Source: an uncultured Acholeplasmataceae bacterium
GTDB taxonomy: Bacteria > Bacillota_I > Bacilli_A > Acholeplasmatales > Acholeplasmataceae
Assembly (NCBI GenBank): GCA_927439925.1
Contig: CAKMKF010000068.1
Location: forward strand, 1-39,815
DNA length: 39,815 bases
Reading direction: 5' to 3'
The notes beneath the pieces were generated by a model that saw only the letters and a program-made list of their open reading frames with translations, had not been told where the DNA came from and searched no databases. This document shows positions 726 to 29,556 of the stretch, piece after piece. The first letter of the stretch is position 1. Every line of letters begins with the position of its first letter. Both the position numbers and the translations under genes were made by a program.

Positions 726-1691
726 TTACTCAGCTTTTCTAGCTGCTTTAAACTGTAGTTGGATTTGGATTTGATCTTTATCAATTGCATCAAATGCATC
801 TGCATCCCATCCTTCAACCCAAATATTGATTCTAACTTTGCCTGTATAATATGTTCTATTCTTTAAATCTTTAGTTTCTGACTCTTGAAGCGTTGCTACG
901 AGTGATTCATTATCTAGAGCAAGGTATGGATTATGTGGATCCATTTCAGAAAGTCTATAACTTGTTGGTGGGTAATCAGTTGGAATATATTGATAAATTA
1001 ATGTTCTTTGGAAGAAATAACTAAATGCTCCGACTGGTGAACCATAACCTCTATTAGGATTTCCTGATGGGTCATAAATAAATGTTCTTAATTCGTCTAT
1101 TTCTCGTAAATCATTAGGATTGCTTTCGTCTTTTAATTCAACAATTGAAATTCTAATCGCATCATGTCCATAATAGACTCCAATATCTCCAGCTTCAACT
1201 GCATCCTCTAAGGTTGGTCCATTAAAGAATGTGTGTGGTGATCTCCATGTTACTCCTTTTGAAACAAAGAATGTACCATCTCTTTCATCACCAAATTCCA
1301 TTTCTTTTGAAACATCATTGATTAAGAAGATATCACGTTCTGCTTGAGCTGTTCTAATCCATAAATCAAATGAGAGATAATGTTCGTTTGCTATAGCTTC
1401 TCCAACTTTTCTTAGACCACCTGTCTGAAAGTTTATTCCATCAATTGATGTGACATCGTATAATCTGATGCCATCAACTGAGCCTTCCAAAGGTGTTGAA
1501 GGTAATACACTGTAGTACTCTATTCCATCGAATGAGAGTTCTAATTCATCTCCACTTGAAGCAGTTAGTGACAAGCCATCAATGTTATTGATTTCTGCTA
1601 ATGTCAACCATGCATAAGTTACTGTTCCAAACACCATGATAACCAATATGAATGTTAGAAGTGAAATATGTATCTTTTTCAAGTTTCTCAT
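726..1691 (-). CDS. SipW-type exported protein, module 2 'B' paralogue (B2)
   Basis: N-terminal TM plus VTYAWLTL motif; C-terminal NIWVEGWDADAFDAI motif; homologous to the ORF at 15289-16254. Confidence 0.85.
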   Translation of the reverse strand: MRNLKKIHISLLTFILVIMVFGTVTYAWLTLAEINNIDGLSLTASSGDELELSFDGIEYYSVLPSTPLEGSVDGIRLYDVTSIDGINFQTGGLRKVGEAIANEHYLSFDLWIRTAQAERDIFLINDVSKEMEFGDERDGTFFVSKGVTWRSPHTFFNGPTLEDAVEAGDIGVYYGHDAIRISIVELKDESNPNDLREIDELRTFIYDPSGNPNRGYGSPVGAFSYFFQRTLIYQYIPTDYPPTSYRLSEMDPHNPYLALDNESLVATLQESETKDLKNRTYYTGKVRINIWVEGWDADAFDAIDKDQIQIQLQFKAARKAE

Positions 1692-1700: not shown

Positions 1701-2432
1701 CTACTCAAACTCTTCATAATCATCATCTATTGCGAAGTTCATCTGCATCTTAATTGATCCACCCATTAAATCATCTGTTGTGTCTGGGTCATATCCTTCA
1801 AGATAGATTATTACGGAAAACTTTATGATTTGACCTGGTCTGAAGTTTGGTACAATCTTTCTCATGACCATACTTTTTGAGAGGAAATGCTCAGCAACTG
1901 GCATTGTATCAGGATAGTATGAATCATTGTTTTTATCAGCTTTCATGAAGAGTGAAGTTTCTCCATCTTCAATAACAATGACTCTAACACCTTCATCTAG
2001 ATTGTTAAGTGGTTCCCCAACAATTTTAATATAATATCTTAAATCAACTGCTTCTGCTCCTTCGTTTTTAACATAGAAGGTATAAGCTACATAATCATGG
2101 TCTACATCTATATAATTTCCATCGGTTTCTTGAACTTCATCTAGTTTAACCCATGCAAATGTAATATCTTTCGCATCTTCAATTGGTTCACTCATTAATC
2201 TGGTTTGTGTGAATACAGCATCATCAGAACCATCAGTTGATATTCTTATACCTCTAAGTGCTGCACTTGGATCAACTGACATAATCATGTTTCCTGCATT
2301 TTGTCCATAAAATGTAATGACACCAAATGTTAAGGAGAGCATACCTGTGATAATGATTCCTAAACTGAAGATTCGATTTCTAATTTTAATGCGTCTTACT
2401 CCAAGAACTTTAGAAAGTCTCATCATCATCAC
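1701..2432 (-). CDS. Exported fibre-subunit-like protein, module 2 'A' paralogue (A2)
   Basis: N-terminal TM then ITFYGQNAGNMIMSVD; C-terminal IYLEGYDPDTTDDLMGGSIKMQMNF; homologous to the ORF at 16265-16975. Confidence 0.85.
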   Translation of the reverse strand: MMMMRLSKVLGVRRIKIRNRIFSLGIIITGMLSLTFGVITFYGQNAGNMIMSVDPSAALRGIRISTDGSDDAVFTQTRLMSEPIEDAKDITFAWVKLDEVQETDGNYIDVDHDYVAYTFYVKNEGAEAVDLRYYIKIVGEPLNNLDEGVRVIVIEDGETSLFMKADKNNDSYYPDTMPVAEHFLSKSMVMRKIVPNFRPGQIIKFSVIIYLEGYDPDTTDDLMGGSIKMQMNFAIDDDYEEFE

Positions 2433-2459
2433 TCCTTTAAATCAGTATTTTTAGTAAAC

Positions 2460-2490
2460 AAAAAGCCAGCGTCATCAATGACAACTGGCT
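2460..2490 (-). terminator. Intrinsic terminator that forms the expression platform of the c-di-GMP riboswitch
   Basis: Minus strand AGCCAG-TTGTCAT-TG-ATGACG-CTGGCT-TTTTTG, a hairpin with U-tract that overlaps the aptamer 3' end. Confidence 0.8.
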
Positions 2491-2551
2491 ACCTTTTATT
2501 AGGCCCTTTAGCTTTGCGTCCTTAGATTTCCCTAAGTTTGCCTTTAACATT
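2477..2551 (-). promoter_or_regulatory. c-di-GMP-I (GEMM-I) riboswitch aptamer
   Basis: Minus strand AATGTTAAAGGCAAACTTAGGGAAATCTAAGGACGCAAAGCTAAAGGGCCTAATAAAAGGTAGCCAGTTGTCATT. Conserved GGCAAAC, GAAA loop in P2, GGACGCAAAGC, GGGCCTAA and GGTAGCCAG. P1 closes between 2544-2551 and 2477-2484. Confidence 0.92.
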
Positions 2552-2579
2552 TCGTATCTATATTTTCCAATACACCTGT

Positions 2580-2608
2580 ATTTTAATTCATGTTGTAAAG
2601 TTTGTCAA
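2580..2608 (-). promoter_or_regulatory. Sigma-A-type promoter for module 2
   Basis: Minus strand TTGACA (2603-2608), 17-bp spacer, TAAAAT (2580-2585), just upstream of the riboswitch. Confidence 0.75.
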
Positions 2609-2740
2609 CACTTTTGTTCACTTTTTTTACATTATATTCATTGATTGTATGAAGATAGCAACCATTTTTTTGGCCTTACTAAAGTAAAGGGGAAAAATAA
2701 GGTTTTAAGAAAAATCAAAAAAATAACAATTAATATGGAA

Positions 2741-2776
2741 AACAGGGCACATTTTCTAATTAGCCCTGTTTTTTTG
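2741..2776. terminator. Terminator hairpin after the giant-protein gene
   Basis: ACAGGGC...GCCCTGT stem. Strong T-run on +, shorter TTTT on -, immediately downstream of the stop at 2785. Confidence 0.6.
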
Positions 2777-2784
2777 ATTACTTT

Positions 2785-5700
2785 TTATTCATTTTTTAGG
2801 ATTTCAACGATTTCTTGTTGTCCCCACTCGTAATCACTAGGAACATCAATGATTGTTAAGGTTACGTAATACTTTCTAGGTAATATCGAATTTTCTAAAT
2901 AAAACGCATTTCCGGTAATTGATACTTGCTGTACTTGAATCGTATAACCAAAACCTTTTGGAAGATTTGCAGTAATTGTATAAGTTCCATAACTTGTTGT
3001 TTGAAATTGATTGTTTGAGTATGTATCAGTTAGTGCATCATATGTTGAAAAGACAGCCATGGATAAAATCGATTGATCAACTGTACAAGCTTCATTATAG
3101 TTTTCACCCAATTGACACAAACTAATTTCTACAAAAACATTTTCAATTAACGTTGTTGTACTATTGATTACAGTTAAATTAAATCTAATATTGTTCGTAA
3201 CATCTTGAACTGCAACATAGTAATCTGTGTAATTCAAACTGTTTTGATCATAGTCCATCGCGTATACACGATATAAAATAAAGTTGAAAGTATCGCCAAT
3301 TGGTGAAAAATCTGCAGATAAATCTTCGGATTGAAAAGCATATCCAGGTTCAACAAAGTTTGTTACTTTTCTAATGATTGCTCCTTCTGGAAGTTTAAAG
3401 ACTGGTTGATAAACACTGGTATTGGTTTGCTGCACTTGTCCAATAATCCAATAAACTGAGTTATCATCATATTCGTTATAAATGATTCCCTTTGTTGGAA
3501 GAATATTAATTGTTCTTGCACTAGGTTGTTCAAGATAGAGTTCATAAGTCATAGGTGTTATTTCTTGATAATCCATTATCGTATTGAACCCTGCAAAAAC
3601 TGTTTCTGTAACAAATAAAATATCTTCAAGTAAACTGTTATCATTTTTCACCTTCGTTAAAGTCACTGATTGAAAGCTATAGCTCCAAGAAAGTGTTTGA
3701 TTCCAAATCAACACATCTTGTGAATAGGTTAATTGATATTGATAACTACCTAATGGAATATTTTTATTAAAATCAATCTCATAACCAACGCCAGGTATTT
3801 CTTGAATAAAGAAGTCAACATCCCTTAATGATACTTGTCCAACTTCATCTGGTATAAATAAACTCGTGACAGTTAACACTGTATCACCATGAAAATAAGT
3901 GTTTGAAAAATCATGTTCGATTCTTAATGTTGGTTGATCTTCATACCCAATTGTCAAGTTAGTCAGTGGTAAATCCAATTCTCCACCATTTAGATAAGCA
4001 GTATGAACTAATTCTGTCATCACATCTTCTAGTAATATATGAGTAAACTGTGACAATGTTCCATCTTCTGCTTGTAAGTAATAAGTGATTGTGTATTGAT
4101 GACGGTAAACTTCAATCAAAGATATCGTCAAATCCACAGATAGTAATGTAGAAAATGGCGAAATCTCTAGTCCATCTAGATAATTCGGTAAATTTAAACT
4201 CATTTGATCATAATAAACATTCGCTATAAATCCTAGATTGCTAAAATTAACAATTTCGGTTTGTTCATCTAGCACTTGATAATATAATCCATAAGGTATC
4301 ATGGTTGTATAAGTACTTAATATAGGACTTATGCTTATCTCATCATGTACAAAGGATAACACCTTAGCTTCACTACTTTCTGCTTTAGAAAAGTATACAC
4401 TATAAGTCTGTCCACTCAGTAGTTTGGTTTCCATGTAATAATCACCGCTAGGAAACAATTCAGTAATTGAAAATAAAATAGATACACTACCCATTCCCCA
4501 ACTACCAGTTAGATTATTGAAAGGTGAATCAGTATCCACGATACCATCCGTTAAATCATAATAAGATGAATGTACCTTAACACCTGTATTAAAATCATAA
4601 ATGGTAACACTCGGTAATAAATTATATAAATCAGGAAGATTTACTGTTTCATAAGTAATCTGTAAAGTACCTAAATCATTATCCTTCACATGATGTAAAA
4701 CTTCGGTTGATGTAATAGATTCTTTCGTATATACCAAAGGCATTGCATTGATGCCATTTGCGATCAATGATTCAATAGCATTCATCTCAACATCAGCGGT
4801 TCTAATAATTCTAATATCATAATCACTATAGGTTGAAGAATCTAGCGCATTGTATGACTCTGAATAAACTCTGATCATTCCATAATGGTCAGATACACTG
4901 TCAATATAATTACCAACGCTATCATACATCGCGTCATAGATACCAAAACTTCTTGGTATTGAAGCCATTGAATCTAATGATTCTTCTCCATAATTAAATG
5001 ATGCATTCTTTGATATTGTATAAGAACCACTCTCTAAGTTGACTTTAAAATAAGATGTTGATTCTTCATAGACTACAATGTTTGAAGTAATATCAGTTTG
5101 AATATATGTTACATTTTCCATTGATGGACCAACATATCGGTAAATCGGATTTGGATAACCAGATAAAGTAAATCGTTCATATGCAGCATATCCAGGAGCT
5201 GTAGTTTGATTAAGTGTTGCTCGATATCCTGAGGCTTGCCACCAGAAAAAGACAAAGGTGTGTGGGCTATGTTTCATGATTGGAGTGATGGTAGCATCCA
5301 TATCCATATTCGTTAACGTGTATACAGGCGTATTTCTATTATAAGAATCATAAGGTACTGTATCCAAAGTTATGACATCATATATACCAGATGTATGATA
5401 TGGTCCTATTTCTACATAGTCCAGTCCATCTTTCTTATAATCACCAACCCATGTATAAGTTTGTTCACCTGATAAAACGATGTCAGGCACTTTTCTACCT
5501 AGACCATCAGAGACTTCAACATAACTATATATATCCATCAATGAAAAAGTTTGCTGGTTTAAAATACTTGCATTGCTAGGGATATAATATGTTATCAATC
5601 CTCTTTTTTCATCAATAATTGGTGCTTTAAGTTTTAAACCATTTGAAACTATATTTCCAGAAATGTCACTTTCTAGTAACTCTAAATCATAAATAGTCGA

Positions 5701-8700
5701 TGCAAATGATGCTTGAATTTGTCTCATTTCACTATATAAATGATAACTGATGGAATCTATCGTCGCGATGTCACCTAACCAAGTTGCATCTATTGTAGAA
5801 CCATCTATATAAGGACTTAAACCTTCAAGATTAAAATTATCAGGAATAAAAATACCTTGCCCAATACCTGCACTTGAAGATAACGCATATATACCAGGAT
5901 ATGTATGTGCTGTATTTTCTTCTAGTGTTGAAAGGATTGAAGGGTTCACTTTTTCTCTTGGAATATATTCGATATAGTTTCTAATATACTGGTCAGTTCC
6001 AGAATAAACAGGTCTGAAGCTTCGAATAGGGAAGTTTTCATAAAACATACCATCTTCTGTTTCAGAGATATCAAAATAATCAATCACTTTACCCATATAT
6101 TGACCAATCCAACCACCTTGGAAAAAATAAGTGAATGGTTTAGCTGACTGATCATTTGGATTGGTAGTTGCCATATTTTTTAACATGTTTAATATCACAT
6201 CATTTGCTTCTTGAAGATTACCAAATCCATCTGCCCAAGTACTTGATAGTTCTGGAGCATTTGAAAACATATTTATTTTTTCATCAAAATTAATCAAATA
6301 TCCAAAATAGATACGGTCAATTGGATAAGTTACATCACCAGTAAAAGCCCAAGTTGATGTTCCTGTATGTATTTTACCTACCATCGCTCCATAAGCATTA
6401 TAAGTCGTTTTTGTGGGCATTACATTCATATCTATTGTATAGGTTTGATTGATTAAATCATAATCACCTATTGCACGTACTTTTCCGTAATTAATCGAGT
6501 TAGAAATATATACTTGATTTAAACCCAATGTCCCAAAGCGGTTCAAATAAACAAACCCAAAAATACCTGATGATAAATATTTACCATAGATATTGCCGTA
6601 ATTTACATTATTAATAACTGATAATACACCTAAAGATAATATACCAGAAGCTTTGGTTCTAGTCTCAGTTGTTATATCATAAGTCGTTTCTACAGATTCA
6701 CTCCACGCATAAATATCACCGTAATTGATCGTAAACATGATTTTTGCATATTGGTGATTTTCACCACCAACAATATAATTTCCATTTTCCAATCTTTCAT
6801 TACGAACAGCTATACCTGATGCATGAGCGATACCTGTAGCACTATGAGTGATTGCTTCAATTTTACCGTTATTAGCAGCATCTTTGATTTGTGCATAAGC
6901 ACCAATCATTTGATAAGTAATACCTGATACTTCGACTTCATGTGAAGCTGTTGTATTTTTGTTTTCAATACGTATATCTCCTAAATTGATTGCGTTAGAA
7001 ATCATTGAGTAATTGTATAAAATAATTCCTGATACATAAATATGAGAAGAGTATTTACCAGTAACTTGAATATCACCATGATTTAAGACGTGATCAACAT
7101 TACCATTTTGATTTTGAATATCAATGGATTGATAATCTATCTGATGTTCTAGATAGTGGTTTGTATTTAAATTTCTTAAGGCGATTCCTGATATCTTAAG
7201 TTGATATATCGACTCAAGTCCTTCATTTTGATTAACTGTAATTGACCCACCATTAAAGCCATTTAGAGCACTTTGATTCATACTCACTTCTTCTAGTAAG
7301 CCTGTAATCATTAAAGTGCCTTGTAAAAGTAAAGTTGATTCAAGATTACTCATGGATAAAAGAATATTTCCTTCATTTCTAAAATGCTCTATCGAAATAT
7401 TTTGTCCTAAAAGTAGTCCTGAAACTTTAATTAAATCTTTTGTCATAACATGACTAGAAGGTAGTGTAATATTTCCTTCGTTATAAGCTTGAAGAATGGA
7501 TAAACCACTAGATTGTTCCAAAATCAATACTCCAGCAACTTTATTAATCAAACTCAAATCTGTTGTTATACTTCTTTCATTGAATATACCTGTAATGTTT
7601 CCTTGCCCATTTTCAATCATTAAAACACCAGCAAGATTGATCTCCATAAGTGATAAATCAGATTCATCAAATATAGTGCCTAAGACCTTATAGATTGTTA
7701 TTGCTCCATTATTCGTTAAACTATTTAAATCAAGTGTTGAATTTGAATTGATAGTTCCTACACCAGAAATATTAATGGATTGACTTTGATTGATATTAGC
7801 TTGGATTTTACCAAGATTATAAAACCAACTTATATCATCAATAGAGTCAGTTAGTAAACCAAAGAAACCACCTATATTTAAGTGATTGATGTAACCTGTT
7901 TCTGCACTTGATAAAATATCATTTTTGTTAACAATTCTTCTAGCGCTAGTTATACTTCCTTTTCCAAGAATGCCACCAACATATGTGTATTGTGCAGCAT
8001 GTGTTGTATAACTCGCTCCTGTTATTATATTCGCGCCAATGATTTCCTGCATCGTGATAAAGTCAGCTTCTCCAATGATGCCACCTACTGTCGCGTTGTT
8101 CGAATCAATCGATAATAAATGAATACCTGCGTTTATATTCCCTATAGAAGAAACTCTAGTAAATGTTCCATCACCTGTTCCAACAAGACCACCAAGAAGA
8201 ATTCTTCCAATCGAGAAGGTAGAGTCAGTAACAGTGATGTCACCTTTAGTATGAACATTTTCAACAGTTCCATTATTCATTTGTCCAGCAACTAGACCAA
8301 TTGAAATATTTTTCTTCTCAGATGTATCAGAAAGATCATCAGTTATTATATTAAAATCTAAGAAATTTATATTTTTAACACTACCAAAAAGCGATGCGAA
8401 AAGAGCATAACTCGCATGTTTACCAAGTAATGTAGTTTGTTTTATCGATAGATTTATAATTGTATGATAATTAGGATCTCCACCTTGATTTACGTTTCTT
8501 GGATATAAAACATTATTTTCATTGACTAGATTGCTTTTTAGAACACCATTAAAACCAACAGGTGCCGCAACATATGCATCACTAGCTAATTGATTCATAT
8601 CGATATCATGCTTAATGACATATTCACTAGATCTAAAAAGTCCAGAAACCATTAGAAGCTCATTCATGAATAAAAGATCGAGTGCATCCATAATCTCTAG

Positions 8701-9774
8701 CTGAAATTGACTAACTGTTAGTCCTCTTAGAATTGGATAGTCTTGGTCTAACAGGACTTGATTTTGTTCAGATAAGTTTTCTGCTAAACCCAAATATGAG
8801 TCAAAGAAAAACCAATCATCTGAAAATAGTAAATGATTCTTGAAATCAATAGTTGCTATACCTTGACCTAATGTTGTTGTAGCATCCAAGTCACTATAAA
8901 CAGATTGATCATAGTAAATATTACTGATAATTCCAGTATTGGATCCAAGTATAGGACTTACTGAAATATTATAAACAACTGCTCTTGATTTAATATGTTT
9001 TGATACAATAAAAACATTTGAAATAGTACCAATATTCTTCGATACCAAACCGGCTATTTCAAATGCACCTTCAGCATGAAATCCAGAAGCATCTTCTCTA
9101 GTATCTAATAAATATGCATTTTCTAATAAACCGCTATTTTCTCCAACAAGTGACGAAACATATTGCATGTTTCCCCATTCAAGTGGTTGGATAATAATTG
9201 GATTGATTAACCCAATATTCTTAACAACTCCACTTAACCCAACTTTAGAAAACATTGAAAAGTATCTTAAGCCTGGGTATTCCAAATCATACATGTCTTG
9301 ATCAAGTATCGTCTGAAAATAAAGATTTGTAATCTCAAATCCTTGACCATCGAAAGTACCATTAAATGGTTCCATAAAGCCAATTGGATGAAATCTTTTT
9401 GTGATATCGTGTGACACAATATCGAAGTAGTCAATGTTATTTCCAAGTACGTAATCAAGTGATAAATAAATCAGTCTGTCACTACCCTTACTTAAAAGAG
9501 ATAGCATATATAGATCATCTGCATTTTCAATAACATAAGTCTTTGTAATATCAATATTCAATGCAGAAAGTGTAATGCTTGAAAAAGGTAGATACTCACT
9601 TTCATAAACTATTTCTTTTAACTCCGAAAAGGTAAGATCTTCACCTCTCCAAGTATTGGATAAATCAAAATCATACCCATGTATTTCTACAAGATTCTGA
9701 GGTCTGTAAAAAGAAAAAAAGAGCGCAGCAATAAAGCATATAATCAACGTTTTTTTGAGTATATTATTCTTCAT
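2785..9774 (-). CDS. Giant (2329 aa) secreted repeat-rich protein; beta-solenoid/GLUG-like N-terminal half, probable adhesin or fibre partner
   Basis: N-terminal hydrophobic segment. IGFMEPFNGTFDGQGFEITNLYF is typical of GLUG/beta-helix adhesins. Repeated G(L/I)(V/I)G and N-x-G-x-I rungs (NNGAITI, NEGNITL, NEGNILL, NGGSITV, NHGDIQV, NLGDIRI, NNGKIEA, NYGDIYA, NYGNIYG, NYGKVRA). Confidence 0.8.
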   Translation of the reverse strand: MKNNILKKTLIICFIAALFFSFYRPQNLVEIHGYDFDLSNTWRGEDLTFSELKEIVYESEYLPFSSITLSALNIDITKTYVIENADDLYMLSLLSKGSDRLIYLSLDYVLGNNIDYFDIVSHDITKRFHPIGFMEPFNGTFDGQGFEITNLYFQTILDQDMYDLEYPGLRYFSMFSKVGLSGVVKNIGLINPIIIQPLEWGNMQYVSSLVGENSGLLENAYLLDTREDASGFHAEGAFEIAGLVSKNIGTISNVFIVSKHIKSRAVVYNISVSPILGSNTGIISNIYYDQSVYSDLDATTTLGQGIATIDFKNHLLFSDDWFFFDSYLGLAENLSEQNQVLLDQDYPILRGLTVSQFQLEIMDALDLLFMNELLMVSGLFRSSEYVIKHDIDMNQLASDAYVAAPVGFNGVLKSNLVNENNVLYPRNVNQGGDPNYHTIINLSIKQTTLLGKHASYALFASLFGSVKNINFLDFNIITDDLSDTSEKKNISIGLVAGQMNNGTVENVHTKGDITVTDSTFSIGRILLGGLVGTGDGTFTRVSSIGNINAGIHLLSIDSNNATVGGIIGEADFITMQEIIGANIITGASYTTHAAQYTYVGGILGKGSITSARRIVNKNDILSSAETGYINHLNIGGFFGLLTDSIDDISWFYNLGKIQANINQSQSINISGVGTINSNSTLDLNSLTNNGAITIYKVLGTIFDESDLSLMEINLAGVLMIENGQGNITGIFNERSITTDLSLINKVAGVLILEQSSGLSILQAYNEGNITLPSSHVMTKDLIKVSGLLLGQNISIEHFRNEGNILLSMSNLESTLLLQGTLMITGLLEEVSMNQSALNGFNGGSITVNQNEGLESIYQLKISGIALRNLNTNHYLEHQIDYQSIDIQNQNGNVDHVLNHGDIQVTGKYSSHIYVSGIILYNYSMISNAINLGDIRIENKNTTASHEVEVSGITYQMIGAYAQIKDAANNGKIEAITHSATGIAHASGIAVRNERLENGNYIVGGENHQYAKIMFTINYGDIYAWSESVETTYDITTETRTKASGILSLGVLSVINNVNYGNIYGKYLSSGIFGFVYLNRFGTLGLNQVYISNSINYGKVRAIGDYDLINQTYTIDMNVMPTKTTYNAYGAMVGKIHTGTSTWAFTGDVTYPIDRIYFGYLINFDEKINMFSNAPELSSTWADGFGNLQEANDVILNMLKNMATTNPNDQSAKPFTYFFQGGWIGQYMGKVIDYFDISETEDGMFYENFPIRSFRPVYSGTDQYIRNYIEYIPREKVNPSILSTLEENTAHTYPGIYALSSSAGIGQGIFIPDNFNLEGLSPYIDGSTIDATWLGDIATIDSISYHLYSEMRQIQASFASTIYDLELLESDISGNIVSNGLKLKAPIIDEKRGLITYYIPSNASILNQQTFSLMDIYSYVEVSDGLGRKVPDIVLSGEQTYTWVGDYKKDGLDYVEIGPYHTSGIYDVITLDTVPYDSYNRNTPVYTLTNMDMDATITPIMKHSPHTFVFFWWQASGYRATLNQTTAPGYAAYERFTLSGYPNPIYRYVGPSMENVTYIQTDITSNIVVYEESTSYFKVNLESGSYTISKNASFNYGEESLDSMASIPRSFGIYDAMYDSVGNYIDSVSDHYGMIRVYSESYNALDSSTYSDYDIRIIRTADVEMNAIESLIANGINAMPLVYTKESITSTEVLHHVKDNDLGTLQITYETVNLPDLYNLLPSVTIYDFNTGVKVHSSYYDLTDGIVDTDSPFNNLTGSWGMGSVSILFSITELFPSGDYYMETKLLSGQTYSVYFSKAESSEAKVLSFVHDEISISPILSTYTTMIPYGLYYQVLDEQTEIVNFSNLGFIANVYYDQMSLNLPNYLDGLEISPFSTLLSVDLTISLIEVYRHQYTITYYLQAEDGTLSQFTHILLEDVMTELVHTAYLNGGELDLPLTNLTIGYEDQPTLRIEHDFSNTYFHGDTVLTVTSLFIPDEVGQVSLRDVDFFIQEIPGVGYEIDFNKNIPLGSYQYQLTYSQDVLIWNQTLSWSYSFQSVTLTKVKNDNSLLEDILFVTETVFAGFNTIMDYQEITPMTYELYLEQPSARTINILPTKGIIYNEYDDNSVYWIIGQVQQTNTSVYQPVFKLPEGAIIRKVTNFVEPGYAFQSEDLSADFSPIGDTFNFILYRVYAMDYDQNSLNYTDYYVAVQDVTNNIRFNLTVINSTTTLIENVFVEISLCQLGENYNEACTVDQSILSMAVFSTYDALTDTYSNNQFQTTSYGTYTITANLPKGFGYTIQVQQVSITGNAFYLENSILPRKYYVTLTIIDVPSDYEWGQQEIVEILKNE

Positions 9775-9786
9775 TGCTTCACCTTC

Positions 9787-10455
9787 CTATCTGTTATAAA
9801 AATCTCTTGAGAGTCCCCATAGTTCAACATATCGATTTGCTTGAATGACATCAATGATAAAACTCAATTTCAATATACAAGACTCTTCGAAAAACACATT
9901 ATTTCTAACTGAAAAATGGTCTCCTCCATCAACTAAATGATACTCTTTTAACTCGCCTTGAGCTAAAATCTCTTGACTATATGCATATCCATCAGATTCA
10001 AAAAATGGAGCAAAATTGGTTCCCATTTTTAATAAAGAAAATGGATAATAAGTGGTTTCCTTGTTTGTATGATAAATGGTTTCAACGGTTTGTCTATTAT
10101 CTTCTTTATAAGTTCTAGTCAATTCCCACTCATCCATCATTTTAACCCTTACTCTTGAGGCTAGAGACGCTTTGATCGTAATCGAAACATCTAGCTTCCC
10201 TATATAATTTAAACTGTCTGGATCATATGTATTGACGATTAGTACTTCTTTTACAGGATCATAATAAATGCTTTGTTCAGTAACATATAAATCATCAAAT
10301 GATATATATGCGACAATTTCGATATCACCTGTAGAAAGTGTAATACCATATTGTTTTTCAGTCACGTAATAAGCAAATGTTAAAACAACTGAAAGTAATA
10401 GTAACAAGATATATATCAAACTTACTAACACATATCTATTTTTAAATAATTTCAT
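9787..10455 (-). CDS. Exported protein with SipW/TasA-like N-terminus
   Basis: TM then VVLTFAYYVTEKQYGITLSTGDIEI; 222 aa, inside the same operon. Confidence 0.65.
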   Translation of the reverse strand: MKLFKNRYVLVSLIYILLLLLSVVLTFAYYVTEKQYGITLSTGDIEIVAYISFDDLYVTEQSIYYDPVKEVLIVNTYDPDSLNYIGKLDVSITIKASLASRVRVKMMDEWELTRTYKEDNRQTVETIYHTNKETTYYPFSLLKMGTNFAPFFESDGYAYSQEILAQGELKEYHLVDGGDHFSVRNNVFFEESCILKLSFIIDVIQANRYVELWGLSRDFYNR

Positions 10456-10456
10456 C

Positions 10457-11110
10457 TTAGCTCACCTCTTTTTTAGCTGATACAGAGCCAATAGTAACTG
10501 TCATTGAAAAAGTGTACTCTAAATAATTTGCAGGGATTTCAATTAAATCATAATCAACCCAAAACACAAGTTGGAATGATAATTCATCTCCAGGAAATAT
10601 CGTTATATTCGAAATATCATTGAGCACTGATGCATTATATAAATCAATCGCGTTCATAATATCTACTTTTGTAGTTAATGGTGAATATATGGTTTGAAGT
10701 AATAGATGATAAGCCGTATTCTTTTGATGATTGATATCTAAATTGATTCCTTCATAAACAACTAACATAATCATCGCATCATGACTAACGTCAACATTGA
10801 TTAAGTGTCTTGTTAATGGAGAATTACTACTTAAAACGACATCAATTTCAATTGAAGTTGCCATTTCATCAAATACATTGGACAAATCACTTACTAAGTC
10901 ATCTTCAAAATCAATATACGCGAGTTCATTTAATATAAACTGATCTAATATGAGTTCATCATTCGCCTTCATATCCACCAGGATCTCATTAGACACAAAA
11001 GTAGCTAATGATTTTCTTTGGACATAAGTAAACCATGCATGCGTAATCAATGCTGTTGAAACAGTTGTGAGTAATATAAGTAATACAATGATTAGTTTAC
11101 GCATAAGCAA
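10457..11110 (-). CDS. Exported protein with SipW-type N-terminus
   Basis: TM then ALITHAWFTYVQRKSLATFVSNEI; 217 aa. Confidence 0.65.
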   Translation of the reverse strand: MLMRKLIIVLLILLTTVSTALITHAWFTYVQRKSLATFVSNEILVDMKANDELILDQFILNELAYIDFEDDLVSDLSNVFDEMATSIEIDVVLSSNSPLTRHLINVDVSHDAMIMLVVYEGINLDINHQKNTAYHLLLQTIYSPLTTKVDIMNAIDLYNASVLNDISNITIFPGDELSFQLVFWVDYDLIEIPANYLEYTFSMTVTIGSVSAKKEVS

Positions 11111-11126
11111 GAACTCCTATTCTTTT

Positions 11127-11891
11127 TTATGTCAGTTCATTGGATATATACATAAATATATCTTCAACAGTGAACACCTGATTCATAAAAATATTTGAAT
11201 TTGTGTAAGGAACTTGGTTGATATCTGAACCATAGATAGTCGGATCAAAATAAAAATCAAAGAATACGATCATAGATGAACCCAGTTCCTGATCTACAAA
11301 GATTGGAACATTTCTAACGAGTGGATAAGTATATCCATCATCTTCATTAAAATAATTACTTGAATGAATAGTTGGTGATACTTCCTTCTTATCAATTGTT
11401 TCTACATCATTTTGGATATATACAATCTTCGTAACTTCATAATTGAATGCATTTTGAATCTTATTCTTGCTTAATACATAACCAGAGGATGTAACTCCAC
11501 CGATACTTAAATTTAAGTATGACTCAGAATTCCCTAATGCTAAAATTTTAATCGCGAATGAATATCTTTCACCAGGTGCAGCACTTCCATCCATTAAATG
11601 AGCAGATGTTGGATTTGGAATCAACTGATAACATAAATCTTCTTCATTTGTAGTACAGATGTTATTCGTAAGTGTTAAATTACTACTTCCATCTCTTAAC
11701 ATGTTTTGATAAATATAAAACTCATATTCTGCTTCAACATCTGATATCTGTGATATAAGATGAGAGTTATTTTCATTTGTGATAATAAACCATGCATAAA
11801 CAGTTACGGAAAGCAGCATAAAAGCGGATAGAAAATAGGTAACAGAAAGAATCATCATTTTTTGCATACTGTAAACTTTTTTCTGCTTCAT
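11127..11891 (-). CDS. Exported protein with SipW-type N-terminus
   Basis: TM then VTVYAWFIITNENNSH; 254 aa. Confidence 0.65.
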   Translation of the reverse strand: MKQKKVYSMQKMMILSVTYFLSAFMLLSVTVYAWFIITNENNSHLISQISDVEAEYEFYIYQNMLRDGSSNLTLTNNICTTNEEDLCYQLIPNPTSAHLMDGSAAPGERYSFAIKILALGNSESYLNLSIGGVTSSGYVLSKNKIQNAFNYEVTKIVYIQNDVETIDKKEVSPTIHSSNYFNEDDGYTYPLVRNVPIFVDQELGSSMIVFFDFYFDPTIYGSDINQVPYTNSNIFMNQVFTVEDIFMYISNELT

Positions 11892-11910
11892 GCGTTCACC
11901 TTCCTATATT

Positions 11911-13437
11911 TTAAAATTGTTTCTTAATATTAGTTAAGAATGCTTGACATTCTTCAAATTCACTCTTTCCAAATAGCTTTTCTAGCAATTTTGATAAATC
12001 ATTGATTTCTGTTTGTAAGAATGGAAGATTTAGTCCTTCAAACTTTCTAAATATCTTTCTAGCAACCATATAATCAAGTGCTTCATATTCAGATCCACCA
12101 CAAGCAACATATACAGGAACGAATGATTTAATCTGCTTCATAATACGATTACCAAACGTCACTTTAAAGTTTTTTGTGATAAAATTGTCAAGTTTTTCTA
12201 AGTTTTCAATTGCTGCTAAACTCATAGGATAATCTTTAAATGCACCTCTAAACAAGTCAGTCATATAATCATAACTAAACTGTACACCTTCTGTGATTGG
12301 AGCATCTATATATTGAGATTTTGTATTGATTTCAATTGGAGTGGCACGGTCATAGACCTTGTCAGTAATGATAAATGTTGAGTCATCTTTATTTGCAGTG
12401 CCGATAAACCATACATTTTGAGGAAGTAATATCTTACCTCTTTGGAAATTCTTAGGATCTCCAGCTTCTGTGTTAGGAACGATATCGATTAACCATTGGT
12501 CATGATCAGGCATTTCCAATAATGATAATAGTTCTGCGAAATAGTATTCTACACGCGCTAGATTCATTTCATCTAAGACAATAATATTGATATCATCTCG
12601 ATAAGTTGTTTCATAAATAGCTTTTAAAAAGTCTGTTTCATTAAATTTCTTTGTAAATTCATTTAAATATCCAATCATTTCAGCACGATCACGCCATGAA
12701 GGCTGTACTGCAATGATTGCTGCATCATGACTAAAGAATTTTCCCATAGCGTAAGGTAATGATGTTTTCCCTGTACCAGAAATACCTTCTAAAATCATTG
12801 TTTTAGATGCTGCCATACCGGCAAAAAATGCCGATATAATCTTACGATTGTAATAAAGACCTAATTTATTAGCAGAGAAGTTAATAAATCTTGTAACAAG
12901 ATCTTTCAAGCTAATCATATCTTCGTCTTTCATTCTAATGGTTGTGACTATATCTTGATAGTCCATATCGACTTGAATCAATTTAACAAATCTAGAATGA
13001 GGAAGATTTGGATCTTCTTCTTCAGGTTCACCATCAGGATAGTCTGGATTGATACCAAGGTTTGATACTTTAAGTGCTAATATTTTATTCTTTTCATCAA
13101 TTAATTCCATTGTTTTTTGATTTAAAAATGCAATTTCAGCAACCAATTCATCTTTTTCAATCTCTTGTTTGGAGAACTTGATATATCTTTTTATTGCTTG
13201 AGCTAGCTTCATCGTCAAAATGACAATAAAGACAATATTGATGATAAAGACAATGACTGTCATTACCCAATCTAACATAGAGAAATGGATAGACGATAGC
13301 ATAAAATCACTAAATAGATCTGAAAACCCATCTAGGAAAAATGCTCCGAATACTCCGATTAACCCTCTAAAAAAATCAAGGATCTTCTCAAAGAATTCTC
13401 TGATGAAGTTGATGTAATAACGTCCAAATTCTACCAT
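11911..13437 (-). CDS. Membrane-anchored McrB/MoxR-like (AAA_5-type) AAA+ ATPase
   Basis: TM near residues 50-80, charged linker, Walker A GISGTGKTS, Walker B INIIVLDEMNLARVEYYFAELLSLLE, sensor-like VWFIGTANKDDS. Confidence 0.85.
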   Translation of the reverse strand: MVEFGRYYINFIREFFEKILDFFRGLIGVFGAFFLDGFSDLFSDFMLSSIHFSMLDWVMTVIVFIINIVFIVILTMKLAQAIKRYIKFSKQEIEKDELVAEIAFLNQKTMELIDEKNKILALKVSNLGINPDYPDGEPEEEDPNLPHSRFVKLIQVDMDYQDIVTTIRMKDEDMISLKDLVTRFINFSANKLGLYYNRKIISAFFAGMAASKTMILEGISGTGKTSLPYAMGKFFSHDAAIIAVQPSWRDRAEMIGYLNEFTKKFNETDFLKAIYETTYRDDINIIVLDEMNLARVEYYFAELLSLLEMPDHDQWLIDIVPNTEAGDPKNFQRGKILLPQNVWFIGTANKDDSTFIITDKVYDRATPIEINTKSQYIDAPITEGVQFSYDYMTDLFRGAFKDYPMSLAAIENLEKLDNFITKNFKVTFGNRIMKQIKSFVPVYVACGGSEYEALDYMVARKIFRKFEGLNLPFLQTEINDLSKLLEKLFGKSEFEECQAFLTNIKKQF

Positions 13438-13471
13438 GGTCTTCTCCTAAAAAATCCTTAAAACTAAATTG

Positions 13472-14161
13472 TTAACCTTTTGTTAACTCTAATTCACGAA
13501 GTATTTCTCTACGAATTGCTTCGATTTCAGTTTCTAAACTTAAATTAACTTGTTCTACTTCTTTTTTAAATTTTTGTTCCATTTTCTCTTTATTCATCAC
13601 GAGAAGGAATCTGACTAAAAACGCACCTTCAAGTAATAGTAAAACTAGAACTGGAAGAATAACAAATAATGCAAACCCTGTTGGTGATTGTAAATAATCA
13701 AGCATATTCCCAACATTTGGAATCGTAGATCGATGCACTGAAAGTGCTTCTGATATATGAATGGGTCTATCAACATCTGACGCATTATCACCTTTTGTTA
13801 TTAAAAATGGTTGCCCATCTATATATTCAATATTCACGATACGATGTGTATTGTGACTTCTAATTCTTAAATCATAAAATGTAATGATATCTCCAACTTC
13901 TAATCGTGATCTAGATTGATCATCTAACATGCTGACAAGAATCACATCTCCTTGATTAAAGGAATCTTTATTGTCACCTGACATCGAATTCGATTGAACA
14001 GATAAGAAGCCTGTTTGAAAAACATTTGCGATATCAGAGGTTGTCTTTAATTTGATGCTAGCAACTGAAAATAACACCAAAAAAACTATTACAGTATAAA
14101 ATAATCCATTTAAAGAAATTTTTACTGCATGAATAACCTTGCTTCTAGTTCTTGGATTCAT
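13472..14161 (-). CDS. sipW: SipW/ER-type signal peptidase I
   Basis: Catalytic Ser region LSVQSNSMSG; general-base region SHNTHRIVNI carrying His rather than Lys; TMs at both ends. Confidence 0.88.
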   Translation of the reverse strand: MNPRTRSKVIHAVKISLNGLFYTVIVFLVLFSVASIKLKTTSDIANVFQTGFLSVQSNSMSGDNKDSFNQGDVILVSMLDDQSRSRLEVGDIITFYDLRIRSHNTHRIVNIEYIDGQPFLITKGDNASDVDRPIHISEALSVHRSTIPNVGNMLDYLQSPTGFALFVILPVLVLLLLEGAFLVRFLLVMNKEKMEQKFKKEVEQVNLSLETEIEAIRREILRELELTKG

Positions 14162-14194
14162 ATTAACCTCTCATTTTAAGTCACCAAATAGGTT

Positions 14195-14225
14195 GGTAAG
14201 TGCAACAGCTTGTGTTGCACTTACC
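14195..14225. repeat. Perfect 13-bp-stem hairpin between C1 and sipW
   Basis: GGTAAGTGCAACA-GCTTG-TGTTGCACTTACC; no U-tract on the transcribed strand. Confidence 0.85.
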
Positions 14226-14253
14226 TGACTAGTAATCTATTTTTTATTAACTA

Positions 14254-15213
14254 TTAAGCTCCTGTGAATCTGAATGAAGCAAGAATTGTTTTGCCTAGTA
14301 AAGCGTTGTAACCTTCTGCATCCCAACCTTCAAACCATACACGAACTGTAACTTGACCATAATATTCAGCATCAGCAATAAGAGATTGGTCAGCTGTCAT
14401 ATCAAGTATTAATGAACTTGTAATTGAAGTTAGAGTAGCTACTGTAGTAACTGCATCACTTCCACCAGGAAGGATCGCATTTGATTTGTAGAAATAGTTT
14501 TGAGCACCATTTACACCAACGTAAGTAGGAACTCCTTGTACATCTTCAGTTAGACCACGAAGGTCTGCTGCAGCAAGTCCACCAAGTACTGTATTTGTAG
14601 TTGAAAGTGCGTTTTCATAAGCAACAGTAGTATTTGTTGGTGTAAAAGTTCCAACTGGCTCTTCAATATTTTGATTACCTGTAATTGAAACTCTCATTGC
14701 ATCTGCTGGATTAACAGCTAATGCACTGTTTGCTGCATGAGAAACACCTTTACTATCTGTAAATGCAACTCTAGTTGTAAATGAAGTTTCAGTTCCTGTT
14801 AATGAAACATAACTCCAATTGATTTGGCTTGTTGAGTCTGATCTGAAATGTAATGGTAATTGTAGATATCCTGCAGTTGTACCATCACCAACACCAATTG
14901 TGCCTAGTGTGTAAAAATTTCTTCCATCAGGTGAAGTCACGTGATTGAATCTAAAAGCATCTGCACCATAAGTTGCTGTCATGTAATTAATGATGTCTAA
15001 TGTAGTAAGTGTCGATTTCCATTCTAATGCAAGTGGATCTCCAGTACCAATAGCAATTTGAATCCCTGAATCAGCAATAACTTCTGCTTGAAATGGTTGT
15101 ACTGTTGCTGTATTCGTAATAGTGAACCATGCAAATGTCGTAGTTCCAAGTGCGATAACTGTTAAAACGACTGATAATACGGATAATACTAACTTTCTTG
15201 TAATTTTTTTCAT
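14254..15213 (-). CDS. SipW-type exported fibre-subunit-like protein, module 1 'C' (C1)
   Basis: GTTTFAWFTITNTATVQPFQAEVIADSGIQIAIG; C-terminal VTVRVWFEGWDAEGYNALLGKTILASFRFTGA. Confidence 0.85.
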   Translation of the reverse strand: MKKITRKLVLSVLSVVLTVIALGTTTFAWFTITNTATVQPFQAEVIADSGIQIAIGTGDPLALEWKSTLTTLDIINYMTATYGADAFRFNHVTSPDGRNFYTLGTIGVGDGTTAGYLQLPLHFRSDSTSQINWSYVSLTGTETSFTTRVAFTDSKGVSHAANSALAVNPADAMRVSITGNQNIEEPVGTFTPTNTTVAYENALSTTNTVLGGLAAADLRGLTEDVQGVPTYVGVNGAQNYFYKSNAILPGGSDAVTTVATLTSITSSLILDMTADQSLIADAEYYGQVTVRVWFEGWDAEGYNALLGKTILASFRFTGA

Positions 15214-15288
15214 TTCCTAGTCTCCTTATATTTTTTCTTTTTATTTTATCTTCTATATCAATTAGCCATTGCTAAATGAATACCATAA

Positions 15289-16254
15289 TTACTCTGCTGG
15301 ATGTGCAATTTTAAATTCCAGCTGCATTTTAATTCGATCTGCAATGATGGAGTCAAATGCGTCTGCATCCCATCCCTCAATCCAAATGTTTACTCTAACT
15401 TTGCCTTGGTAATAAACTTTTCCTCCAGGCGTTGAGTAATTTGATTCTTGTAATACTGCAATGAGTGATTCATTGTCTAGGGCTTGATATGGATTCATAG
15501 GGTCCATTTCAGATAGCCTGTAACTTGTATTGGGTACTTCTGATGGGATTTGGATAAATACTCCAGTGTGTTGTGCAAAATAACTATATGCTCCGTATGG
15601 TTTTCCATATCCCCTTGATTCATCTTCTGATGGATCGTATATAAATACTTGTAAATCTTCTATATCTCTTACATCGAGTATGTTTTCTTCATCTTTTATT
15701 TCTTCTACTGAGATTCTAACTGCTTGACTTGCATAATAGAAGTTCACATCACCTTTATAAACCATGTTGCCAATATCATTTCCATTTAAGAAGTCAACGC
15801 TACTTTCCCAACTTCTACCTCTTGATACAACATAAGTGCCTCTAGCTGTTGTGTCATACATCACGTTTGGACTTACATTATTAATTAAGAAGAGTCCATG
15901 TTCAATCTTTGTTGTTCTAAACCATAATTCAAATGACATGTAATCTTGATTTGGAACTGCGACTCCATATTCTGTGAGTCCTCCTCTTCTAAAATCAATA
16001 CCATTTCTTGAAGTTACATCCTTTAGTGTAGGATTTCCAAAATAGACTTCAATGACATCAGAATCAATTTCGGTTCCGAAGTTAATTCCATCGAGTGATA
16101 TTTCTAATTCGGAAGTTGTTGTTGCTGTTAGTGAGAGTCCTTCAATGTTGTTAATGGTTGACATTGTGATCCACGCGTATGTGACTGTACCAAAGAGTAA
16201 GACGATGAAGAGGAGTGATAATAGTGAAATATAGAGTTTCCTTAGTTTTCTCAT
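15289..16254 (-). CDS. SipW-type exported protein, module 1 'B' (B1)
   Basis: VTYAWITMSTINNIEGLSLTA...VNIWIEGWDADAFDSI. The track start at 16278 overlaps A1; the internal ATG (MRKLRKLYIS) follows AGGAGGCAGCTG and is the better start. Confidence 0.85.
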   Translation of the reverse strand: MRKLRKLYISLLSLLFIVLLFGTVTYAWITMSTINNIEGLSLTATTTSELEISLDGINFGTEIDSDVIEVYFGNPTLKDVTSRNGIDFRRGGLTEYGVAVPNQDYMSFELWFRTTKIEHGLFLINNVSPNVMYDTTARGTYVVSRGRSWESSVDFLNGNDIGNMVYKGDVNFYYASQAVRISVEEIKDEENILDVRDIEDLQVFIYDPSEDESRGYGKPYGAYSYFAQHTGVFIQIPSEVPNTSYRLSEMDPMNPYQALDNESLIAVLQESNYSTPGGKVYYQGKVRVNIWIEGWDADAFDSIIADRIKMQLEFKIAHPAE

Positions 16255-16264
16255 CAGCTGCCTC

Positions 16265-16975
16265 CTACGGATTTTCAATCGAGAAGTTCATCTGAAGTTT
16301 AATCATTCCACCTAAGATATCATCAGTACAATCAGGATCAGTTCCTTCAATCCACATGACCACACTATATTTTCGAATCTGCCCAGGAGTAAAGTTTGAA
16401 ACTTTTTTTCTAGTTACTATCGTTTCTGATAAAAATTTATCTGTCTTCTGCAATTCATAAGGATAGCTAATTAGAACACCTCCACCAGGATTATTATCTG
16501 GTTTTTGGTAAATTGTCTCAACATCTTCTTCAATCACTAGCACTCGAATTGCTTCATCCATTCCTTTATATACATCAGTGATTCGAATGTGATAGATAAT
16601 ATCGACTGCCTCAATCCCGTTATTTTGAAGATAAAATGTATAAGCAACATAATCATAATCTGGGTCACTGTAATTTCCTGTGGTTGCTGATACCTCTTCA
16701 ATCTTTAACCAAGAGTAAGTCATATCTCTTGCTTCGCCAACAGGTTTTGTCATTAACCTTGCTTGTGCATTGTCAAATGTTTCATCATTGGATAAGACAA
16801 TTCCTCTTTTATATGCATCATGATCTACTGTCATGACGAAGTTTCCTGCTTGTTGTCCATAGAAAGTTATCAGAATGAAAATGATGGAAAGAATACCAGA
16901 TCCTAAGAAGATCAAGGACTGCATTCGTTTTTGCTTGATTGATTTTTGAACTTTTAGTACTTTGGATAGTTTCAT
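16265..16975 (-). CDS. Exported fibre-subunit-like protein, module 1 'A' (A1)
   Basis: ITFYGQQAGNFVMTVD; C-terminal MWIEGTDPDCTDDILGGMIKLQMNF; first gene of the long minus-strand operon. Confidence 0.85.
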   Translation of the reverse strand: MKLSKVLKVQKSIKQKRMQSLIFLGSGILSIIFILITFYGQQAGNFVMTVDHDAYKRGIVLSNDETFDNAQARLMTKPVGEARDMTYSWLKIEEVSATTGNYSDPDYDYVAYTFYLQNNGIEAVDIIYHIRITDVYKGMDEAIRVLVIEEDVETIYQKPDNNPGGGVLISYPYELQKTDKFLSETIVTRKKVSNFTPGQIRKYSVVMWIEGTDPDCTDDILGGMIKLQMNFSIENP

Positions 16976-17043: not shown

Positions 17044-17073
17044 ATTATTATAAATTGCTTACGATTATGTCAA
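17044..17073 (-). promoter_or_regulatory. Candidate promoter of the A1-B1-C1-sipW operon
   Basis: TTGACA (17068-17073) with TATAAT (17047-17052), 15-bp spacer, or AATAAT at an 18-bp spacer. Confidence 0.45.
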
Positions 17074-17262: not shown

Positions 17263-18699
17263 CTATTTTTCAATGTCCTTCCAAGCTTCAGTTCCTATAT
17301 AGCCACGTAGTGCTTCTGCAGAAAGTGGTTTTGTGAAGTAGAAACCTTGCATTACTTCAATCTGATATTTCTTAGCTTCTAAAAGCATTGGATGATCTTC
17401 TATTGCTTCACAAATGACTGTGTACTTGTTCTTTTGAGCAAATTCAACCAAAAGTGATGCAAACTTCGCTTTCATGTAGGATTCTTCTTCTTTCAAGAAC
17501 TCGTTATCTAATTTGATGATATCGATATCTAGTGCTTCAGCTTTTGATAATGTCGCGTAATCTAGACCAAAGCCATCGATTGCAATTTGGAATCCCATTT
17601 TCTTTAAATCACTTAATGTTTTATTGATCTGTAAAGGTTTATCAAATACTGCGAACTCGATAATTTCCAATATAATATTTTCGGCATTCATTCTATACTT
17701 CTTCAATAACTTTTGGAACTCACCTGATAGGTTCTCATTCATTAACTGTTTAGGACTTAAGTTGATCGAAAATAGAATGTTTCGCTTAGGAAACTCTTGT
17801 TTAAGTTCTTGATACGTCTTGATGACTGTTTCTAATCCCCATAAACCAATCCAATTGATATCACCAGATTGTTCCATGATACCTAAAAACTTAAATGGTG
17901 ATAATAATCCGTGTTCAGGGTGATTCCAACGTATGAGTGCTTCAACACCATAAATGCTATTAGAAGTGATATCTATCATTGGATGATAAAATAACTGGAA
18001 TTCCTTATGCTGAATCGCATGTTTGATTTGATAGTAATACTCAACGTGTTCTCCACCTTCAGTCGTCATCTCATCAGAATAGACTCTAATTGCATTTCCA
18101 CCATTTCGCTTAATTAAATATGTAGCTAGCTTTAATGAAGTTAGCAAGTCCTTCAAATTAGAACCATGAATAGGAAAGAATGCAATTGATATTGATGCAG
18201 TCGAATTAATTGATGTGTCACCAAACAGTTTAATCGGACGACTTAATGCAATTTTAATCTTATTTGCTAAATCTACTGCTTCAGTTCGATCATAATCCAT
18301 TGACAAGAAGATTAAGAACTCATCATTTTGAAGTCTAGAAAGTTTTACACCTTTAGGAAGTGCATACTCGATATTTTTAACGATTTTTTCAATAATTTTC
18401 TCACTTTCATTTTGACCAAATGCGTTAATAAAGTCAGAAAATTTATCTAAATCAAGGTAAATCAGTGAGAATTGTCCATCTTTTCCTGCTCTAGCAATAT
18501 GAGAGGTGATGATTGATGTGATTTCAGCTCTTGTAAGTACCCCTTCAATCGTTAATGCTTTCTCTTCTTTAATTCTTCTGCGTTCAGAAAAATAGGAGCG
18601 TGCCAAAAAATAGATTGATGCAAGCATAATCAAAATTGCAAAAACAGATAATATAATTGTCAATTGATCACTAATCTGATATATGGTGAACCATCTCAT
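17263..18699 (-). CDS. Degenerate GGDEF + partly degenerate EAL protein, probable c-di-GMP effector or weak PDE
   Basis: RLQNDEF in place of GGDEF; EALIRW kept; DDFGTGYSSL replaced by DGFGLDYATL; QGFYFTKPLS kept. Confidence 0.88.
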   Translation of the reverse strand: MRWFTIYQISDQLTIILSVFAILIMLASIYFLARSYFSERRRIKEEKALTIEGVLTRAEITSIITSHIARAGKDGQFSLIYLDLDKFSDFINAFGQNESEKIIEKIVKNIEYALPKGVKLSRLQNDEFLIFLSMDYDRTEAVDLANKIKIALSRPIKLFGDTSINSTASISIAFFPIHGSNLKDLLTSLKLATYLIKRNGGNAIRVYSDEMTTEGGEHVEYYYQIKHAIQHKEFQLFYHPMIDITSNSIYGVEALIRWNHPEHGLLSPFKFLGIMEQSGDINWIGLWGLETVIKTYQELKQEFPKRNILFSINLSPKQLMNENLSGEFQKLLKKYRMNAENIILEIIEFAVFDKPLQINKTLSDLKKMGFQIAIDGFGLDYATLSKAEALDIDIIKLDNEFLKEEESYMKAKFASLLVEFAQKNKYTVICEAIEDHPMLLEAKKYQIEVMQGFYFTKPLSAEALRGYIGTEAWKDIEK

Positions 18700-29381: not shown

Positions 29382-29407
29382 TCAATAGAACAATGCTTTC
29401 GCCCTTC

Positions 29408-29556
29408 TACGATAAAGCGCAATCCTGTTGAGTTGGGCAACCCAATGGAACAGTCATATATTTATTCAATATATGCCCAGCATAATTTCAATGCTTCGGC
29501 GTCATTCCCTTTCCCTTTACGGTACTATTGATTTGACGCAGCCTCTTTAATCGTAG
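29408..29556 (-). promoter_or_regulatory. Lysine riboswitch (L-box)
   Basis: Minus CTACGATTAAAGAGGCTGCG...AGTACCGTAAAGGGAAAGGGAATGACGCCGAAGCATTG...GCTGGGC...GGGTTGCCC; P1 CTACGATTAAAG / CTTTATCGTAG closes the aptamer; directly upstream of lysA. Confidence 0.93.

Follow-up and report, generated by a model that had tools for sequence, protein, structure and literature searches.

The window analysed here is a 39,815-nucleotide stretch (contig CAKMKF010000068.1, assembly GCA_927439925.1) from an uncultured Acholeplasmataceae bacterium. Its minus strand carries a gene block in which two GGDEF-EAL genes are followed, in this order, by A1, B1 and C1, a signal peptidase, an AAA+ protein, the accessory subunits X1 to X3, a giant protein, a riboswitch, A2, B2 and the start of C2 (Table 1). 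The spacing is operon-like; the gap between X3 and the giant gene, for example, is 12 bases. A first-pass annotation had proposed an undescribed surface-fibre system at this place, and the genes it named are all present on the minus strand where it put them.

The McrB-like NTPase and its conserved neighbours

A PDB profile search with the AAA+ protein matched a sole molecule, E. coli McrB (expectation value (E) 5.2e-4). The protein contains the Walker A motif GISGTGKT, the Walker B motif IVLDEMN and the signature GTANKDD, and among its homologues GISGTGKT, VLDEMN and GTANKDD vary little or not at all. Note that the signature, read from an ungapped alignment, is compatible with NxD then D and also with NxxD. 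A hydrophobic helix lies inside residues 48-86, and since basic residues come after it, the positive-inside rule predicts a cytosolic NTPase ring. Judged from its sequence, the AAA+ protein is a membrane-anchored McrB-like NTPase, and going by its family it probably prefers GTP; we call it the GTPase below. The first-pass annotation had described it as McrB/MoxR-like. The profile match bore out the McrB part, and a MoxR/von Willebrand A-domain system found no support, as no von Willebrand A-domain match turned up among the cluster proteins.

In relatives, the gene after the GTPase encodes DUF2357, the N-terminal domain of McrC (E 6e-11 to 1e-13). This partner has no nuclease domain recognisable by Pfam, a PDB search with its profile returned no match, and its tail is rich in lysine and glutamate and, judged by eye, coiled-coil-like. 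In the window-cluster proteins scanned, Pfam detected neither HEPN nor any other nuclease. A separate McrB-like/DUF2357 pair is present on contig C51 of the window genome (~4387-6271; open frames of ~907 and ~530 aa) and is perhaps an ordinary McrBC-type system. At L048 (8331-12925) and in the tandem pairs G138:C1, G114:C20 and G115:C1, two McrB-like genes flank one McrC-like gene with no SipW nearby; both GTPase domains of L048 are identical in alignment.

The window peptidase scored 66.4 bits against the NCBIfam model TIGR02228 (endoplasmic reticulum (ER)/archaeal-type signal peptidase; cut-off 51.85), and its match to the SipW equivalog model (E 8e-19) fell under the cut-off. The earlier name, SipW/ER-type peptidase, was thus right about the ER/archaeal type and marks a similarity as regards SipW.

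The neighbourhood survey covered 80 named loci of Bacilli and Clostridia, 78 of which had a readable GTPase. A SipW-family gene was found within 8 kb of the GTPase in all 78; in 58 of the 78 it lay directly upstream, with gaps mostly below 60 bases, and a DUF2357/McrC gene lay directly downstream in 68 of the 78. A/B/C subunits were present in 60 of these readable loci. The order SipW-AAA-McrC recurs across Bacilli and Clostridia, and a second, shorter SipW-like peptidase usually comes after the McrC gene. A third small SipW-like peptidase gene was seen among the accessory subunit genes at L151 (13240-13755), and a similar small gene at L044 (13846-14292).

The order of the window genome is Acholeplasma-like, and many named matches belong to the Acholeplasmataceae. 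Within it, the AAA+ protein occurs in 99 of 160 genomes (62 of the 88 good ones) and in most genera, its identity dropping with taxonomic distance. Both GTPase and McrC were found in 90 of the 160, GTPase alone in 9, McrC alone in 1 and neither in 60 (Fisher p 5e-33, uncorrected for relatedness). In a sample of the phylum, 79/392 genomes have the GTPase at E <= 1e-60. Acholeplasma laidlawii PG-8 carries a single, complete locus (L163), and the other cultured carriers are A. granularum, A. palmae and A. brassicae.

As these sequence comparisons indicate, the cluster genes belong together. That the ATPase and the giant gene are chance neighbours, unrelated to the SipW genes, is an objection that fails because the ATPase, the peptidases and the subunits recur as neighbours, joined by the giant gene in four genera or more; the neighbourhood counts and the co-occurrence reject it, we found no point in its support, and we regard it as extremely improbable. 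The grouping made by the first-pass annotation therefore held up, and what it had missed are the DUF2357/McrC partner, the second signal peptidase and the McrC-less nature of the window copy.

Subunits, giant protein and copies of the locus

The window encodes nine short proteins, one more than the eight SipW-type proteins first counted. Seven of them have the SipW-type motif T-[FYH]-A-[WY]; A1 and A2 have instead a membrane helix without the canonical motif. Profile comparisons joined B with C (prob 100, E 5e-47) and A with C (prob 98.7, E 1.7e-16), and all three have a common C-terminal W-x-EG-x-D signature: they belong to a single superfamily of beta-rich proteins. In support of this, the AlphaFold2 models of C (predicted local distance difference test (pLDDT) 88.9, predicted template modelling score (pTM) 0.83) and of A (pLDDT 88.2) are beta-rich. 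Residues 23-38 are the sole very-low-confidence stretch in the model of C, and the donor strand of TasA comprises residues 28-38 (PMC9674648); in the model, this coincidence of place is suggestive. X3 aligned remotely with the TasA family (prob 91.9 over 183 columns), and its counterpart at L151, a homologous locus in another family, exceeds the cut-off of PF12389 (TasA/camelysin). One BsaA-family protein was also found in a homologous locus.

The giant protein contains 14 degenerate NxGxI repeats, compared with 1.4 expected in shuffles, and its sequence makes a solenoid likely. Its length of 2329 aa and its repeats agree with the earlier description of a giant repeat protein, which was also called GLUG-like; the Pfam scan of the giant found no GLUG, and a distant homologue gave a GLUG match below threshold. 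No C-terminal hydrophobic segment was found in the giant, and a PDB search with it returned weak, meaningless matches only. Near-full-length orthologues lie close to the GTPase and on the same strand in the genus of the window and in g10, g13 and g15, and loci farther removed have either long proteins of another kind or no such protein. In four or more genera, then, the giant genuinely belongs to the operon.

The two paired modules had been described as swappable. The pairing is real, and reflects a tandem duplication of the entire locus, of which the second module is the beginning. Two GTPase loci and a single McrC are present in eight related genomes (G027, G029, G031, G032, G034, G039, G040 and G043): the upstream copy reads A-B-C-SipW-GTPase-X1-X2-X3-giant, and the downstream copy adds McrC and a second peptidase, SipW2. 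In the window genome, the McrC orthologue and SipW2 of the downstream copy lie on contig C44 (L031), not adjoining the window's GTPase. By gene content, then, the window holds the McrC-less first copy of such a pair and, under riboswitch control, the beginning of the second. Since the nucleotide-binding motifs are intact in every McrC-less copy examined, these copies are, as far as sequence can tell, probably active, and may draw on the single McrC together with the downstream copies.

Two promoter-like sites, before A1 and before the riboswitch, score 11/12 and are the two best in the 17.3-kb stretch (consensus match only); their positions suggest two transcription units. Bases 1-130 are an exact repeat of bases 283-412 (130 bp) and come with fold-back sequence at the contig edge. 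Because this repeat sits where the contig ends, we take the tail of C2 to be an assembly artefact and bases 1-282 to be untrustworthy.

Table 1. Features of the gene block on the minus strand of the window, and the derived SipW-less loci
Feature	Position	Strand	Description
GGDEF-EAL protein 2	18696..21296	-	866 aa, membrane; Pfam EAL E 5.5e-63, GGDEF 1.1e-14
GGDEF-EAL protein 1	17263..18699	-	478 aa; Pfam EAL E 2.4e-55
Sigma-70-like promoter before A1	17044..17073	-	TTGACA-18-AATAAT; consensus match only
A1	16265..16975	-	A/B/C superfamily; membrane helix at the N-terminus, canonical SipW motif absent
B1	15289..16278	-	SipW-type secreted subunit; profile match to C
C1	14254..15213	-	SipW-type secreted subunit, beta-rich
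SipW/ER-type signal peptidase	13472..14161	-	NCBIfam TIGR02228
McrB-like NTPase with N-terminal membrane helix	11911..13437	-	E. coli McrB best PDB match
X1 accessory SipW-type subunit	11127..11891	-	motif TVYAWF; orthologues in relatives
X2 accessory SipW-type subunit	10457..11110	-	motif ITHAWF; orthologues in relatives
X3 accessory SipW-type subunit	9787..10455	-	motif LTFAYY; remotely TasA/camelysin-like
Giant secreted protein	2785..9774	-	2329 aa; N-terminal signal/membrane helix
Sigma-70-like promoter before riboswitch	2580..2608	-	TTGACA-17-TAAAAT; consensus match only
c-di-GMP-I riboswitch aptamer RF01051	2477..2552	-	65.8 bits, gathering score 35
Intrinsic-terminator-like hairpin	2464..2490	-	5' arm = aptamer 3' strand; from folds
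A2	1701..2432	-	A1 paralogue; first gene of second, riboswitch-controlled copy
B2	726..1691	-	paralogue of B1
C2	283..652	-	cut by contig edge
Derived SipW-less loci	L043 9999-20000; L045 1-11968; L047 1-12591; L153 6586-20000		

In a GTPase tree built by a quick method, the four derived loci (L043, L045, L047 and L153) nest within the SipW-type clade. SipW and the subunits are missing beside their McrB/McrC pair. What they keep is a giant protein, here with a C-terminal membrane helix and, in the two scanned, cadherin-like domains, and a degenerate GGDEF-EAL protein without the EAL signature, then McrB and McrC. The McrB/McrC machine thus outlasts SipW, while a giant surface protein and a link to cyclic di-GMP (c-di-GMP) are retained, an arrangement that recalls the logic of LapD/LapA with unrelated genes. 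This clade is also what one would expect if the giant surface protein were the main client of the GTPase, in adhesin display, anchoring or release, and the SipW subunits a separable add-on. However, in most clostridial loci and many bacillar ones the pair is accompanied by SipW and subunits, with no giant gene in the fetched stretch, and we judge this alternative very unlikely.

Predicted control by c-di-GMP

One to three c-di-GMP-I aptamers, in tandem, precede gene A in 20/20 McrC-bearing loci examined, from Acholeplasma-type and related Bacilli (L033, L035, L037, L038, L040, L041, L042, L044, L046, L049, L050, L067, L068, L069, L071, L074, L081, L151, L163 and L164). They precede gene A in 0/9 McrC-less copies (window copy 1, L032, L034, L036, L039 and L060-L063). 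Note that the surveyed loci are related by descent, and these counts are not independent trials. The McrC-bearing loci often have a further aptamer before the accessory genes, and a riboswitch search in two SipW-less loci found none. In 21/21 aptamers, the 3' strand (mostly GCCAGUUG...) doubles as the 5' arm of a hairpin with a following U-run. Aptamer and terminator arm thus overlap; a bound ligand should keep the terminator from forming, so that an ON switch is predicted.

Triple-tandem c-di-GMP-I riboswitches stand before gene A at L038 (17183-17506) and L040 (16480-16806), with a further one inside the operon. Bc3-5 of Bacillus thuringiensis (PMC4759541) likewise has three c-di-GMP-I aptamers in tandem; it differs in its gene set, and L038 and L040 also have the internal aptamer, before the accessory subunits.

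The two GGDEF-EAL proteins have intact EAL motifs and degenerate GGDEF motifs (LQNDEF in protein 1), and because of this pattern their sequences make them probable c-di-GMP phosphodiesterases. Many relatives, too, have protein 2 upstream of gene A. A GGDEF-domain protein, a possible source of c-di-GMP, is encoded at 33632-34762, on the same contig as the cluster. Among other riboswitch candidates of the window, a 'greA leader' match at 2673-2775 was dismissed, being on the opposite strand and far below the gathering score, and a lysine riboswitch lies at 29407-29555, upstream of the gene 28029-29327 and near DapH-type lysine/diaminopimelate genes. No MraY was found in any genome of the window's family, the window genome included.

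The c-di-GMP control also bears on whether the cluster could be an anti-phage conflict system, in which a membrane relative of McrBC/CoCoNuT would have the surface subunits as its sensor or effector. The McrB and McrC families are mostly restriction systems, CoCoNuT relatives are predicted to be RNA-targeting defence (PMC11090510), and the window GTPase matched the defence-candidate model PDC-M26A of PADLOC (E 2.4e-39). This match covers only the generic GTPase domain, so that membership was not accepted. Riboswitch control speaks against defence, as do the partner without a detected nuclease, the GTPase with a membrane helix and no specificity domain, and the constant company of signal peptidases and secreted subunits. 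Moreover, most genera of the order have the GTPase, and its identity declines with taxonomic distance, which suggests vertical inheritance; the same genome also has its separate McrB/DUF2357 pair on contig C51. We consider a defence role unlikely.

Proposed mechanism and relation to known systems

CoCoPALM (Bell et al., eLife 2024; PMC11090510) pairs a membrane McrB-like GTPase and a homologue of McrC with signal peptidases to which a part in pilus assembly is ascribed. Its GTPase is marked by an NxD-type signature and by an FtsB-like transmembrane region with a coiled coil at the N-terminus, and its McrC homologue by DUF2357 and a coiled coil. It is rather probable, in our view, that the cluster is a c-di-GMP-induced system for the biogenesis of surface fibres or adhesins, of a tandem CoCoPALM type, and an assembly or regulatory role of its ATPase is a fair inference. 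A more specific version is possible and is put forward tentatively: a restriction-type McrB/McrC pair would have been turned into a c-di-GMP-gated membrane machine that drives or gates the assembly of peptidase-released fibres, the activator, made from the riboswitch copy only, serving two rings. Fibre biogenesis of this kind would form an energised class of its own.

Going by its genes, the system would work as follows. High c-di-GMP would allow read-through of the riboswitch, and module 2, McrC and the second peptidase would be made; the GGDEF-EAL pair would lower c-di-GMP and switch module 2 off. SipW would cleave the signal peptides of B, C and X, and through the N-termini thus freed these subunits would assemble into fibres on the naked membrane surface. 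The assembly may proceed by donor-strand exchange, the mechanism of TasA fibres, which also depend on SipW (PMC9674648). The host, a mollicute, is probably wall-less. Since its family has no detectable MraY, consistent with wall-less cells, the fibres would need holding by membrane proteins, and A is the best candidate for the anchor because it is a member of the subunit superfamily without a canonical SipW site; it may form a membrane-held base, as anchor or initiator. The giant would be the long adhesive part. The cytosolic McrB ring, stimulated by McrC, would draw on GTP in organising, gating or recycling the site of export and assembly. The c-di-GMP-induced copy alone encodes McrC, so that activation of the ring would also be gated by c-di-GMP and be common to both copies; copy 1, too, would depend on McrC for its activation.

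Several observations weigh against such a fibre-building machine. No GTPase takes part in forming the canonical TasA and BsaA fibres, so nothing known of fibre assembly requires a GTPase ring. The match between A/B/C and TasA in profile comparison is confined to the signal peptide, and the A/B/C folds have no convincing PDB match: the search with A gave unspecific beta-sandwich matches only, and that with C ranked a TasA fibre second among 350,542 PDB chains, which is not significant (E 0.058, TM-scores 0.20-0.26). For these reasons we do not claim that A/B/C belong to TasA. No PF12389 protein was found in the window genome, and a riboswitch search of four loci farther afield gave no match. 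Finally, G004, from the same family as the window, has a SipW-TasA-like locus without GTPase (L162) besides its CoCoPALM locus (L044). Since this ordinary locus has no adjoining GTPase, the GTPase goes with the A/B/C type and not with SipW generally.

The strict adjacency to the signal peptidase gene and the lack of a nuclease partner would also fit a SipW-type secretion locus in which the McrB-like ring is not an assembly motor but a quality-control unfoldase that clears mis-inserted preproteins. Hexameric AAA+ enzymes of other families do remove mis-inserted preproteins; however, we know of no McrC-type activators for extraction ATPases, and McrB/McrC stays with the giant where SipW was lost, which fits a broader surface role. 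We hold this alternative to be rather unlikely.

McrB and McrC are known as DNA-restriction machines, and if one branch of them builds the cell surface, this would show how a defence NTPase can be put to another use. For SipW-type fibres it would also mean a step that depends on NTP, which the known members do not need for their assembly. Among the hosts are wall-less mollicutes, in which surface structures must function on a bare membrane. Laboratory testing is feasible because the carriers include cultured Acholeplasma species, and the riboswitch arrays make the trigger, raised c-di-GMP, predictable.

With E. coli McrBC, a type IV restriction system, the cluster has in common the McrB-type NTPase domain and the DUF2357 partner; here, a membrane helix replaces the DNA-binding domain, no nuclease domain was found and the neighbours are secretion genes. 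CoCoNuT is a related GTPase branch with coiled coils (PMC11090510), whereas here signal peptidases are present and no HEPN or nuclease genes were seen. The tapA-sipW-tasA operon of Bacillus subtilis and sipW-bsaA of Clostridium perfringens, whose BsaA forms polymers (PMC7395162), likewise combine a SipW-type peptidase with small SipW-type secreted subunits. The likeness extends to the remotely TasA-like X3 and to BsaA-family and PF12389 members in some homologous loci. Those operons, however, have no GTPase or McrC, and here A/B/C are a separate sequence family and come with the giant protein and c-di-GMP riboswitches.

The closest likeness in gene pairing is to CoCoPALM, with its membrane McrB-like GTPase, McrC homologue with coiled coil and signal peptidase association; the window's own copy differs in lacking McrC, which sits in the second copy. 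Since the pairing matches, the association of GTPase and peptidase is itself not new, and the first-pass annotation's label of an undescribed system is not supported: the name dates from 2024 (PMC11090510), although it is treated there in one paragraph, with no subunits, fold, giant protein, riboswitch or mechanism in the main text. In the literature searched, which did not extend to supplements, we found no further analysis of it. What is new here is the A/B/C superfamily, the giant in at least four genera, the riboswitches, the tandem pair, the SipW-less form and the locus of A. laidlawii PG-8.

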